A stretch of 33,047 nt of DNA, taken from assembly GCA_029558675.1 (NCBI GenBank), contig JAKQEF010000104.1, forward strand, positions 1-33,047. The letters run 5' to 3'. Made by a program: the position numbers and the translations under genes. This DNA comes from Bacteroidota bacterium. GTDB lineage: Bacteria > Bacteroidota > Bacteroidia > Bacteroidales > Tenuifilaceae. The notes beneath the pieces were generated by a model, which was not told where the DNA came from, did not search any database, and worked only from the letters and a program-made list of their open reading frames with translations. This document shows positions 16,256-21,581 of the stretch, piece after piece (positions within the stretch are counted from its first letter, which is position 1; every line of letters begins with the position of its first letter).

Positions 16256-16263
16256 TACCTTTG
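16256..16263 (+). promoter_or_regulatory. -7 box of the M14 carboxypeptidase gene
   Basis: TACCTTTG fully matches TAnnTTTG and lies 52 bp before the ATG at 16315. The -33 side is weak (TTG at 16227, 26 bp away). It overlaps the ORF-track start 16261, so the longer reading frame is not translated from this promoter. Confidence 0.5.
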
Positions 16264-16314
16264 GGGCTCTCACAATTCAGAGTTTTTCATAATCAAAATC
16301 AAGATCAGGTAACA

Positions 16315-19300
16315 ATGAAACGTATTCAATTTCTTTTAATCGCATTAGCCTTTTCGTTTTTTCACCTTGGGGTAAATGCCCAGGAGTATTATATTAAGTT
16401 TCTTGAAAACGACAGGAATAAAATTAACACGATAGTTACTCAGACCGTTTCCATTGATAAAATTGACAACGGATTTGTTCTGGCATTTGCCAACGAGGGC
16501 GAATTGGAAAAGATTAAATCGTTGGGTTATACCCCCGAAATTCTTCCCTACCCCTCAACTGATGACAAGTCGATAATAATGGCAACCACAATTGACCAGA
16601 TGGCCAACTGGGACCGTTATCCCACCTACGAAGTGTACCGCACCATGATGAAGAAGTTTGAGCAGGATTACCCTAATCTTTGCAAACTGGACAGTGTGGG
16701 AACAACAGTGCAGGGGCGGAAACTTTACGTTGTTAAGATTTCGGATAATGTCCTGGAGGAGGAGGCCGAGCCCGATTTTCTTTTCTTAAGCACCATACAT
16801 GGCGACGAGACCACGGGATTTATTCTCACTCTCAGGCTTATTGACTATCTGTTGTCCAACTACGGAACCGACGACAGGGTTACCAGCATGGTGAATAATA
16901 TAGCCATTTATATTAACCCAAATCACAACCCTGACGGGACTTATTATTCGGGGAATCATACCGTCAGTGGTTCAAGGCGATATAATGCCAATAGCTATGA
17001 CCTCAACCGGAACTTTCCCGATCCGCGGACAGGCCAAAATCCCGGAGGGCCTTACCAGCCCGAAACCTTGGCCATGATGGCCTATGCCCAAACCAAAAAT
17101 TTTTCCCTGTCGGCCAATTACCACGGCGGTGCCGAATTGGCCAACTTCCCGTGGGATACATGGACAACCAGCCAAAATGCCCATGCCGACCATAATTGGT
17201 TCTACAACCTTTCACGGCAGTATGCCGATATTGTTCAAGCCAATTCCCCTTCGGGCTACTTTACCGATTATGGCGGAGTAACGCAGGGTGGCGACTGGTA
17301 CGTGATTACGGGCGGAAGGCAGGATTACATGAATTATTGGCACCATTGCCGCGAAATTACCATCGAGGTATCAAATGTAAAAACGCTTGCAGTTGAGCAA
17401 CTTGGAAACCTTTGGAACTACAATAAAGAGGCAATGCTCACATTTATTGAAAGGGTGAATGCAGGGATTCATGGATTGGTTACAAATCAGGACGGCGAGC
17501 CGTTGAACGCCACTATCACCGTGCTTGAGCACGATAAGGATAACTCTCATGTGGTTACAAAGCCAGCCACAGGGAGCTACCTGCGAATGATTGAGCCGGG
17601 AACATGGCAGGTATCCTACTCATGCGAAGGATATGTTACACAGGTTCATGCGATTACCGTTCCCAGCTACACTTCATCCATCGAAAAGAATGTTGAGATG
17701 GTGCAGGCCGGTCAAACCACCCTCAACGGATTTGTGAACGATGCCGAAACCGACTTTCCCATTGGCGGAGCCAAGATAGAATTGATTGGATCCAGCGTCA
17801 CCCCTGTGTTCACTAACTCTCAGGGCTACTATTCGTTTGGGTCAATCCCTGAGAATACCTATCAAATTAAAGCCTCAAAGGCTGACTACATGAGCCAAAC
17901 AGTGGTAGAAACTTTAGTTGGCGAGTCCAATCAGGTGGATTTCAACCTCTACCTTTCCAACGCCGAGAGCTTCGAATGGGATATCCCCGAAGGATTTACC
18001 TTCACAGGTGGCGATTGGACACGGGACAACAGCGTTGCCTACGAAGGGGATTATAGCATGAAATCGGCTGCCATTGGTCATGGTCAGAATACAACCATGC
18101 AGATTAACCTCAACGTTGCCGGTGCCGGAGAGATTTCGTTTGCGCGAAAAGTTTCTTCCGAGTCGAACTGGGATTTCCTCAAGTTTTTTATCGATGGTAC
18201 AGAAAAGGGCAGTTGGAGTGGAAATAGTGATTGGTTCGAAGTTAGTTACCCGGTAACGGCAGGCAATCATATTTTCAAGTGGCAGTACGTTAAGGATAAT
18301 TCAATGTCCAACGGGAGCGATTGCGGCTGGATTGATAACATCATCTTCCCACAAACACAGCATAGTGTAACATTTACCGTTAAATCGGGAGCAACACCCA
18401 TCAGTGGGGCCACCATAGAGTTCAGCAATCAAACCCTTACCACCAATGCATCGGGTAAAGTTACCTTTACCGGAGTGCCCAGGGGGAAAGACAAACCCTA
18501 TACCGTTTCAAAGGAAGGTTACCTCAACGCTTCAGGAAAGGTAAATGTGAAATACGTTGACGTAAACCTTTCGGTTGACATGGAACCATCGCCCAACTAT
18601 TACAACGTTACGTTTAATGTGTCCGGCACCGATGGCCCGATTGAAGGGGCTTCCGTAACCATTGCCGGGCACGAACTGCAAACCAACAGCGCAGGAGAGG
18701 CTTACTTCGAGCAAATAGCAGAAGGTGTTCATACCTATACGGTTGATGCCGAGGGATATATTCCCGTTGAGGATGAACTGAATGTGGACGAGGACAAGGT
18801 GGTTGATGTTATTCTTGAACCTCATGTTGAACCATTCTCCGTTACCTTCCATGTTTCTAACCCGGGATCCAACCCCATTGAGGGGGCCGTGGTTACGCTC
18901 AATGGCACCTCGTCTATCACCAATAATCAGGGAGAGGTGGTTTTCTCCGAAGTTCTGCCCGGTGTTTATGCTTATTCTGTGGCAGCCGAAGGGTATATCC
19001 CAATTCAGGGAAATGTGGTGGTGGATATGGATAAAACTGTTGAGGTGATATTGGAAGTGGAAACTCATCCCTTCAACGTCATTTTCGTTGTGAAGAACAG
19101 CGAGGGACTGCCTGTTGCCGGGGCATTGGTACAGCTCGATGGCAAATCGGCCTCCACAAATCAGAACGGTAAGGCATTCTTCATGGAGGTTGAACCCGGT
19201 ATTTATAACTACAGCGTGGAGGCTGCATCGTACAAAACAGTACAAGGAATCATCCTGGTGGACGATGATAAAAATGTTGAGATTACTTTAATGCCGCTTG

Positions 19301-19833
19301 ACCCGCTATATTCCGTTACTTTCTATGTTTACGACAAGCAGAACCAACCCATTGAATCGGTATCGGTAACTTTTAACGATGAAAACATAGCTACCGATGC
19401 GAATGGCAAGGCGCTATTCGTCGATATTGAGGAGGGTGATTATAGCTATCGGGTGTCAATTGAGGGATTCCATGCGCAGGAGGGTAACGTTCATATCGAA
19501 TCCGATACGACAATAATCATCAATCTCACACCTCAGGGGGTTCCCTTTATGACGAACAATTCTACTGTGGTTGAGATTTGGCCAAATCCATTTAGACAAT
19601 GGTTGAACATAAGGGTTGCCGTACCCTCTACAGAAAGTATTGCCATTGATATTTACAGCATTACCGGACAGAAGGTTGGCACCATTGCATCGCCTACGGT
19701 TATAAACCGCGAGTCAACCTACCAATGGCAGGGATTCGGAGAATCGGGGCACCTGCTGCCCGGAGGTTTGTACGTTGTTAAAGTGATAACCGGCCAAGGG
19801 GTGATCTCGGAAAAAGTACTTTTCATGCCATAG
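16315..19833 (+). CDS. Secreted M14 zinc carboxypeptidase with repeat region and type IX sorting domain
   Basis: The start is set at 16315 because MKRIQFLLIALAFSFFHLGV and NAQ is a signal peptide. The 1172-residue enzyme has an M14 catalytic domain at about residues 90-385: zinc ligands H162 and E165 (HGDE) and H270 (NYHGGAE), R232 in DLNRNFPD, and catalytic E351 in ITIEVSN. Two carboxypeptidase-regulatory beta domains follow, then a lectin-like jelly-roll (about 555-680) ending in CGWIDNIIFP. After it come five beta repeats of about 80 residues (SVTFxV...GYIPV...NVDxDKxVDVIL). The last 80 residues (VEIWPNPF...GLYVVKV) are a type IX sorting domain. It is exported and probably surface-attached, removing C-terminal residues from peptides. 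Own promoter; terminator at 19874. Confidence 0.93.
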   Translation: MKRIQFLLIALAFSFFHLGVNAQEYYIKFLENDRNKINTIVTQTVSIDKIDNGFVLAFANEGELEKIKSLGYTPEILPYPSTDDKSIIMATTIDQMANWDRYPTYEVYRTMMKKFEQDYPNLCKLDSVGTTVQGRKLYVVKISDNVLEEEAEPDFLFLSTIHGDETTGFILTLRLIDYLLSNYGTDDRVTSMVNNIAIYINPNHNPDGTYYSGNHTVSGSRRYNANSYDLNRNFPDPRTGQNPGGPYQPETLAMMAYAQTKNFSLSANYHGGAELANFPWDTWTTSQNAHADHNWFYNLSRQYADIVQANSPSGYFTDYGGVTQGGDWYVITGGRQDYMNYWHHCREITIEVSNVKTLAVEQLGNLWNYNKEAMLTFIERVNAGIHGLVTNQDGEPLNATITVLEHDKDNSHVVTKPATGSYLRMIEPGTWQVSYSCEGYVTQVHAITVPSYTSSIEKNVEMVQAGQTTLNGFVNDAETDFPIGGAKIELIGSSVTPVFTNSQGYYSFGSIPENTYQIKASKADYMSQTVVETLVGESNQVDFNLYLSNAESFEWDIPEGFTFTGGDWTRDNSVAYEGDYSMKSAAIGHGQNTTMQINLNVAGAGEISFARKVSSESNWDFLKFFIDGTEKGSWSGNSDWFEVSYPVTAGNHIFKWQYVKDNSMSNGSDCGWIDNIIFPQTQHSVTFTVKSGATPISGATIEFSNQTLTTNASGKVTFTGVPRGKDKPYTVSKEGYLNASGKVNVKYVDVNLSVDMEPSPNYYNVTFNVSGTDGPIEGASVTIAGHELQTNSAGEAYFEQIAEGVHTYTVDAEGYIPVEDELNVDEDKVVDVILEPHVEPFSVTFHVSNPGSNPIEGAVVTLNGTSSITNNQGEVVFSEVLPGVYAYSVAAEGYIPIQGNVVVDMDKTVEVILEVETHPFNVIFVVKNSEGLPVAGALVQLDGKSASTNQNGKAFFMEVEPGIYNYSVEAASYKTVQGIILVDDDKNVEITLMPLDPLYSVTFYVYDKQNQPIESVSVTFNDENIATDANGKALFVDIEEGDYSYRVSIEGFHAQEGNVHIESDTTIIINLTPQGVPFMTNNSTVVEIWPNPFRQWLNIRVAVPSTESIAIDIYSITGQKVGTIASPTVINRESTYQWQGFGESGHLLPGGLYVVKVITGQGVISEKVLFMP

Positions 19834-19839
19834 GGTATT

Positions 19840-19874
19840 TTTGGTAGCAACGGTATTGTTTTTTTATACTTTTG
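19840..19874 (+). promoter_or_regulatory. Promoter of the alkaline-phosphatase-like gene
   Basis: TTTG at 19840-19843, 23 bp, then TACTTTTG at 19867-19874, a full -7 match with a slightly long spacer. The last base of the -7 box is the first base of the terminator hairpin, so initiation would fall inside the left arm of that hairpin. Confidence 0.5.
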
Positions 19875-19905
19875 TGGGGAATCGGAAGCGATTCCCCACT
19901 TTTTT
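19874..19905 (+). terminator. Rho-independent terminator after the M14 gene
   Basis: GTGGGGAATCG and CGATTCCCCAC form an 11-bp perfect stem around a GAAG loop, followed by six T. It lies 40 bp past the M14 stop codon and 18 bp before the next ATG. Confidence 0.9.
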
Positions 19906-19922: not shown

Positions 19923-21581
19923 ATGAAAATCAATCGGTTTTTTTATACCCTTGTTCTTTTTGCCATTTTTTCTGCCAATAGGGCATATGCCCAACCCGCC
20001 ATCCCGCCCGAGAAGCCTAAACTTATAGTGCAAATAATCATCAGCCAAATGCGATACGATTACCTGCAGCGGTACTCTTCCAAAATCACTGATGATGGGT
20101 TGATGCACTTGGTAAACGAAGGAGCATTTTGCCGCAATGCGCGGTACAACTACCTGCTCACCCAGTCGTTACCCGGAATGGCTACCATATCAACGGGCTC
20201 AAACCCAAGCGTGCATGGCATCATTTCGGACAAATGGTTTTCGAGAATCAATGGGCAATCCGTTGATGCTGTGGCCGATGATAATGTTACAACCGTTGGC
20301 GGTAGCTTTTACAATGGAAAATATTCTCCAAAAAACTTAATAACCAGCACTTTGGGCGATGAGCTCCGCATGGTCGATCCCCGCTCGAAAGTAGTGGGGG
20401 TATCGTTGGATCCGGCTGCAGCCATACTTGCAACAGGCCACAATGCTAATGGGGTTTTCTGGATGGATGTTGAGCGGGGCAAATGGATAAGCAACAGCTA
20501 TTATATCGACAGCCTTCCCAAATGGGTTGATACGCTTAATGCAAAGGGGTTTGCCGATTTGTACACCAATCGCGATTGGAGTTTAACCAATCCCCTCGAT
20601 GAGTATTACGAAGCTGATATAGCCACCATAAAACAGCCTCAGGCCAAAAAGCGCATAGCTGATAAATTGAAAAGGCTGGCCGATGGGATTATTCTGGCCA
20701 AGAAACCTGCGCGCAACTACTCGCTTCTCCTCGAAACGCCATTTGGCATTACCTATACCAAGGATTTTGCCATTGCTGCCATAGTGGGAGAGGGGCTGGG
20801 TAAGGACGAACATACCGATTTAATCACCATTACCTTTACCCCAACCAAGCATATAGGGCAGAAATATGGTCCTCATTCCATTGAAATGGAGGATACCTAC
20901 TTGAGGCTTGACAGGGAGATGGCCCATTTTCTTGCTTTCCTCAATAGTGAAGTAGGAAGGCATAACTACTTGCTGATACTAACATCCGACCAGGGGGTGG
21001 CAGCCACTCCGGATCATCTTGAAAAATCGAAAATTCCCGGTGGGTACTTCGACCCGCGACAAGCCATGGCGCTGCTTGGCAGTTATCTCAACATATCGTA
21101 TGGTGTAGGGAATTGGGTTTTGGGCTACCACGAGAAGCAGCTTTTCCTTAACCGAAGGCTTATTGAGGATTCAAATCTGAACCTGTGGGATGTTCAAGAC
21201 AAGGTGGCCGATTTTATGCTACAGTTTACAGGGATTGCCTATGCTGCAACGGGGCATACATTACAGTCGGCCAATTTTACCGAGGGTGTCTTTTCAAAGT
21301 TTCAGAACAGCTACAACCAACGGCGCTCAGGCGACGTGATTATCAATTTTGAGCCGGGGTGGGTTGAGCGCAATGGTCATATTACCTCTGCCAACTCGCC
21401 CTACAGTTACGATGCACATGTCCCCTTGATTTGGTACGGATGGCGCATCAAACGCCGCCAGGTGTTGAATCCGGTTGATATGACGGATATCGCACCAACC
21501 CTTTCCACTCTCATAGGGATAAGCTGGCCCAACGGTGCCACGGGTAAGCCCATTAAGGAGATTATTGAGAAAAATCCATAG
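19923..21581 (+). CDS. Exported alkaline-phosphatase-superfamily protein lacking the metal ligands (probable pseudoenzyme)
   Basis: The start is set at 19923 (MKINRFFYTLVLFAIFSANR and AYAQ, a signal peptide). The 552-residue protein has the length and scaffold of PafA-type phosphatases: QMRYDYL, ISTGSNPSVHGI, SIEMEDTYLRLDRE, YDAHVPLIWYG and DMTDIAPTLSTLIG. The active-site positions differ. The first zinc-ligand Asp is S41 (ISQMR), the Thr nucleophile is S82 (TQSLPGM), the STDxxGH motif is PTKHIGQ (K309, Q313), the ADHG motif is SDQG (D356 kept, Q357), and the last His is A490 (TSANSPYSYD). The reading frame is intact, so this is not a decayed gene. It probably binds a ligand or protein in the periplasm rather than hydrolysing phosphate. 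Comparison is against remembered family motifs. Confidence 0.85.
   Translation: MKINRFFYTLVLFAIFSANRAYAQPAIPPEKPKLIVQIIISQMRYDYLQRYSSKITDDGLMHLVNEGAFCRNARYNYLLTQSLPGMATISTGSNPSVHGIISDKWFSRINGQSVDAVADDNVTTVGGSFYNGKYSPKNLITSTLGDELRMVDPRSKVVGVSLDPAAAILATGHNANGVFWMDVERGKWISNSYYIDSLPKWVDTLNAKGFADLYTNRDWSLTNPLDEYYEADIATIKQPQAKKRIADKLKRLADGIILAKKPARNYSLLLETPFGITYTKDFAIAAIVGEGLGKDEHTDLITITFTPTKHIGQKYGPHSIEMEDTYLRLDREMAHFLAFLNSEVGRHNYLLILTSDQGVAATPDHLEKSKIPGGYFDPRQAMALLGSYLNISYGVGNWVLGYHEKQLFLNRRLIEDSNLNLWDVQDKVADFMLQFTGIAYAATGHTLQSANFTEGVFSKFQNSYNQRRSGDVIINFEPGWVERNGHITSANSPYSYDAHVPLIWYGWRIKRRQVLNPVDMTDIAPTLSTLIGISWPNGATGKPIKEIIEKNP

Follow-up and report, generated by a model that had tools for sequence, protein, structure and literature searches.

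Locus and gene organization

Within the window, the 33,047-nucleotide stretch of DNA that was analysed as a whole, a gene for an apparent pseudoenzyme related to the phosphatase PafA lies between an upstream M14 carboxypeptidase gene and a downstream gdhA. The features of the locus are as follows.

16261..19833, + strand: M14 carboxypeptidase with a T9SS sorting domain, the upstream neighbour, conserved as such in many relatives
19867..19874, + strand: Bacteroidota -7-box-like sequence TACTTTTG (pattern TAnnTTTG)
19874..19905, + strand: 11-bp stem-loop and T-run, directly 3' of the -7 box (folding energy -21.2 kcal/mol)
19923..21581, + strand: pseudo-PafA coding sequence, 552 aa (NF042991 PafA, 539 bits; PF01663, 106 bits)
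19923..19991, + strand: Sec-type signal peptide MKINRFFYTLVLFAIFSANRAYA followed by Q, with no lipobox cysteine (by inspection of the sequence)

The ORF at 19923-21581 is intact and in frame over 552 codons plus a stop, as the first-pass annotation of this DNA had read it. A lipobox-like signal was found in only 3 of 126 members of the dead set defined below. The M14 carboxypeptidase (16261-19833) contains several carboxypeptidase-regulatory-like repeats. The TAnnTTTG pattern also occurs 5' of the pseudo-PafA gene in related genera; in the window it continues directly into the stem-loop and T-run (19867-19905), ahead of the start codon. Equivalent stems of differing sequence occupy the same place in genera g1, g5, g7 and g8. 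The stem-loop at 19874..19905 could be the gene's own 5' stem, the terminator of the upstream gene, or both, and such stems perhaps insulate the pseudo-PafA gene from the gene upstream. The window's own genome (63.6% complete) has a single match, as does another genome of its genus that is 97% complete, so no active paralogue was found beside the window gene.

A PafA fold with a replaced active site

The window protein aligns with PafA over its full length at 35-36% identity, and a phmmer search of the PDB retrieves PafA (5tj3/5too) over residues 30-549 with an E value of about 1e-105. Its PF01663 (Phosphodiest) score exceeds the cut-off of 23, a match to the alkaline phosphatase superfamily profile, and its NF042991 score falls under the cut-off of 650, which leaves it outside the PafA equivalog. 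The AlphaFold2 model has a mean pLDDT of 90.5 and a pTM of 0.89, and its best PDB matches are wild-type and mutant PafA, headed by 5tj3 (TM 0.86/0.91), in line with the fold retention claimed in the first-pass annotation. The next-best structural match, PhoK/SPAP (3q3q, 5xwi; TM 0.78/0.81), shares the fold but is a catalytic enzyme with 22-23% identity to the window protein over the structural alignment. With PafA (PDB 5tj3; NF042991), the phosphate-insensitive alkaline phosphatase of Bacteroidota, the protein shares the fold, full length, signal peptide and scaffold motifs; it differs in the replacement of nine of ten catalytic or zinc residues and in a conserved signature of its own in segment 376-447.

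We take the zinc ligands of PafA to be D305, H309 and H486 for Zn1, and D38, T79, D352 and H353 for Zn2. This scheme matches that published for PorX, from the same superfamily (PMC11320123). The PDB title of 5too names T79, N100, K162 and R164. The alignment places the following residues at these positions.

20043..20045, + strand: S41, for Zn2 ligand D38 of PafA
20166..20168, + strand: S82, for nucleophile T79 of PafA
20229..20231, + strand: D103, for N100 of PafA (phosphate contact)
20409..20417, + strand: D163 and A165, for K162 and R164 of PafA (phosphate contacts; alignment and 5too title)
20847..20861, + strand: K309 and Q313, for Zn1 ligands D305 and H309 of PafA
20988..20993, + strand: D356 (kept, equivalent to D352) and Q357 (for H353), the Zn2 ligand pair
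21390..21392, + strand: A490, for Zn1 ligand H486 of PafA

D356 alone is kept among the ten catalytic and zinc positions. It is accordingly the only one retained of the six zinc ligands D38, D305, H309, D352, H353 and H486, and S82, D103, D163 and A165 stand where PafA has its Thr nucleophile and phosphate contacts. The seven correspondences read in the first pass (D38 to S41, T79 to S82, D305 to K309, H309 to Q313, D352 to D356, H353 to Q357 and H486 to A490) agree exactly with the alignment; its list of losses was incomplete, with N100, K162 and R164 also gone (now D103, D163 and A165).

In another genome of the window's genus (L002/L036), a 97% identical protein carries S, S, D, E, A, K, Q, D, Q and A at the ten positions, and all 23 distinct closest orthologues (at least 60% identity) are dead, so the loss is due neither to chance nor to an assembly error. 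In these orthologues S41, D356 and Q357 never vary, and position 309 holds either K or R in every one. The first-pass annotation asked whether the S/S/K/Q/Q/A set is conserved in an orthologous clade; the exact set is not conserved across the order, where the replacements are family-specific, and S41 and Q357 are invariant in the closest set only.

True ligands at other positions of the alignment, named beforehand as an outcome that would speak against a dead site, were looked for, and none emerged. The motifs align gap-free save for one residue soon after PafA H486 (A490), and the His nearest A490, numbered H486 in the window protein, is kept in 13% of the closest orthologues; we therefore reject shifted ligands. 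H335 is invariant among the closest orthologues but lies within the 320-343 helix. No substitute His/Cys set, clade-specific or otherwise, was seen in the pocket motifs. This last result bears on the idea that the same pocket has taken up an altered chemistry, with another metal or with metal-free hydrolysis or transfer. A few members do retain four of the six zinc ligands, and the superfamily offers a precedent in YejM, whose supposed inactivity is disputed following a report of Mg-dependent phosphatase activity (PMC7576196), but the replacements vary by family with no clade-wide residue set, and no new conserved His or Cys has appeared in the pocket, which makes such chemistry quite improbable. 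When the closest set is left aside, K or R at position 309 is only weakly associated with D356 (Fisher p 0.058); that this pair substitutes for the metal would be a guess.

Distribution of the dead site and selection on the scaffold

We sampled 246 Bacteroidales genomes with a homologue threshold of E<=0.001 and found a homologue, mostly single-copy, in 152 of them besides the window's own. Among 166 distinct rows, 129 lack the full residue set, and leaving out two partial sequences and L053 (PafA-like, N100D only) gives a dead set of 126. Counted by family label, the sampled families with a clade member number 58, of which 56 are entirely dead, keeping 0-5 of the ten residues, and two (f111, f113) keep 10/10; there are no intermediates between 5 and 10. 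The near-total loss of the metal site claimed for the window protein, which retains only the D352 equivalent of the six zinc ligands, is confirmed, and loss of the site extends beyond the claim to most of the order. Outside the clade, 34 rows of true PafA provide no independent test, having been chosen for the presence of the site; an independent control of 19 more diverged homologues from outside the order (27-34% identity to the window protein) keeps the site throughout, one of them ending before the last catalytic position. In a tree of 41 rows, the Bacteroidales clade is set apart from other PafA with support of 100/100, and the dead members form one side of a branch with weak support (26/41). 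Some Bacteroidales genomes have a distinct PafA-type gene that falls outside the clade (L053, L177, L056, L151, L180), and G028 and G473 have one in addition to the dead orthologue. BF0586, considered as a possible homologue, was rejected as an unrelated collagen-binding protein.

Close orthologue pairs have dN/dS values of 0.039-0.065. Intact sequences share 75 columns with conservation of 97% or more, of which 10 are catalytic and 65 belong to the scaffold; mean retention in dead members is 19% for the former versus 77% for the latter, and K162 and R164 are kept in only 3-4%. Catalytic columns being kept so much less than scaffold columns, one function has been lost, rather than the protein having decayed in general. 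In a single genome, active-site loss alone would look the same in a recent loss-of-function copy nearing removal, its open frame a leftover; the low dN/dS, full-length frames, order-wide retention and conserved synteny contradict this, and we give it almost no credence. That the window protein is a PafA-family pseudoenzyme kept by purifying selection is well supported at the sequence level, with its catalytic residues gone and the gene retained under such selection. The selected pseudoenzyme of the first-pass annotation is hence sustained by the dN/dS values, the mostly single-copy presence across Bacteroidales, the confidently modelled PafA fold and the site-specific loss.

The two new roles proposed with it, ligand sensing and protein binding, fare differently. 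In a ligand sensor, the old phosphate pocket would bind a phospho-compound or another small ligand with no cleavage, and the kept fold, together with the invariant S41, D356 and Q357 and the K/R at 309 of the closest orthologues, would suit such a protein. However, the pocket comprises the least conserved positions across the clade, changing fastest and with chemically unlike replacements, and the phosphate-holding K162 and R164 are nearly always lost. Ligand sensing is therefore disfavoured and appears unlikely, and a protein-binding or structural role is the better fit.

A conserved segment that may predate the loss of catalysis

The region that stands out is a segment which the model, between residues 374 and 449, builds from helices and strands.

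21048..21263, + strand: residues 376-447, candidate functional region, with higher conservation in the dead clade than true PafA shows

From PafA to the dead clade, conservation changes by +0.078 in this segment versus -0.189 in the rest, and the segment is above the rest in 20/20 equal-size subsamples; because it was picked after inspection of the data, the p of 1e-20 is descriptive. Of 16 clade-signature residues, 12 fall within it. Packing constraints could be behind its conservation.

In the three Bacteroidales orthologues whose site is intact, 14-15 of these 16 signature residues are present, and one of the three (L226) lies at the rng-HU-ssb-gldE-gldD-sfp-pcrB locus, as do dead copies. 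Since intact orthologues already have the conserved segment, one at the shared locus, these sequences suggest that a non-catalytic periplasmic role probably preceded the loss of catalysis.

Gene neighbourhood and the link to Lnb

The homologues occur in two main settings. The first is beside the gldE-gldD-sfp-pcrB cluster, often adjoining an M14 carboxypeptidase with a T9SS tail; the second, in Bacteroides-like families, is between lnb and secA, with secA downstream, a placement that hints at envelope or lipoprotein biogenesis. The lipoprotein N-acyltransferase gene lnb lies directly upstream of the homologue in 38 genomes in which adjacency was checked, and in a single case (G458; L209:2137-4911, - strand) Lnb and the pseudo-phosphatase share one 924-aa frame, which could be either a real fusion or the product of a lost stop. 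Genome-wide, lnb is present in 110 of 152 homologue-bearing versus 18 of 94 other genomes (Fisher p 1.6e-16, kinship ignored).

Linkage of the two genes is mixed: in many families lnb is unlinked to the homologue, and in the window's genome it is on a separate contig. Adjacency, fusion and co-occurrence would all be expected of a dedicated accessory subunit of Lnb, but several observations disagree with so strict a tie. Within the window's own family (f1; G000-G025), Lnb is found in g1, g5, g7, g8 and g9 and Lnt in g2, g3, g4 and g6, the two being nearly complementary (both in G023 only), and the homologue is kept in Lnb genera and in Lnt genera without Lnb alike. In G477 (L213) lnb adjoins secA and the pseudo-phosphatase is missing, and in the 18 genomes noted above Lnb occurs with no detected copy. 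Co-occurrence with lnb is thus not obligatory. Given retention in Lnt genera and the absence from G477, our best guess is an envelope role rather than that of an obligatory subunit of Lnb, and we regard a dedicated Lnb subunit as rather unlikely.

Proposed evolutionary path and analogous systems

Our preferred reading, to which we assign a probability of about 0.62, is that the window protein is a secreted periplasmic pseudo-phosphatase, the Bacteroidales orthologue of PafA, which, as the sequences show, has lost the two-zinc site, nucleophile and phosphate-binding residues while purifying selection held the fold. In the Bacteroidales ancestor, the protein probably still had enzymatic activity and, besides it, a second, non-catalytic function, putatively mapped to segment 376-447; once this second role sufficed, the catalytic site may have decayed along most lineages, by one or several losses. 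At present the protein would most likely serve cell-envelope or lipoprotein biogenesis as a protein-binding partner, structural or regulatory; we infer this from the lnb-gene-secA arrangement, the one lnb fusion and the proximity to gldD and gldE. More tentatively, and with the odds against it, one may picture a factor of envelope biogenesis, spread across Bacteroidales and originally a bifunctional PafA phosphatase, which took on an important protein-binding role via 376-447 and later lost catalysis along most lineages, with active and dead forms still at a shared locus.

A possible functional analogy is YejM/PbgA, in which a superfamily domain is joined to five TM segments and which regulates LPS synthesis through LapB. 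In it a periplasmic domain of alkaline phosphatase fold has an envelope-regulatory role by protein contact, as may be the case here, and the lnb fusion likewise attaches a 5-TM module to a domain of this kind. YejM/PbgA, however, belongs to an arylsulfatase/LtaS-like branch, and a TM domain is absent from the window protein, whose profile search matched PF01663 only, with no sulfatase-family or TM-domain match, which sets it outside YejM/PbgA. Another Bacteroidota alkaline-phosphatase-superfamily domain is the effector domain of the T9SS response regulator PorX, in which mutation of the nucleophile left much of T9SS function in place (PMC11320123); PorX differs in having a zinc site, phosphodiesterase activity and a fusion to a receiver domain.

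Implications for the PafA family

Work on PafA has treated it as an important route by which organic phosphorus is turned over. One large survey admitted a sequence only if it had the key residues (PMC8812569), so a dead family would stay hidden, and our literature search found no paper describing this pseudoenzyme family. Judged by their residues, most Bacteroidales copies appear incapable of PafA chemistry, and counting them as phosphatases would mislead. With a dead site common to most of the order yet the rest preserved, the protein has apparently been retained for a non-catalytic job. The analysis brings to light a conserved exported protein family with both active and dead orthologues. 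Because an active copy occupies the locus shared with dead ones, the order of events, second function first and catalysis lost later, is directly testable.
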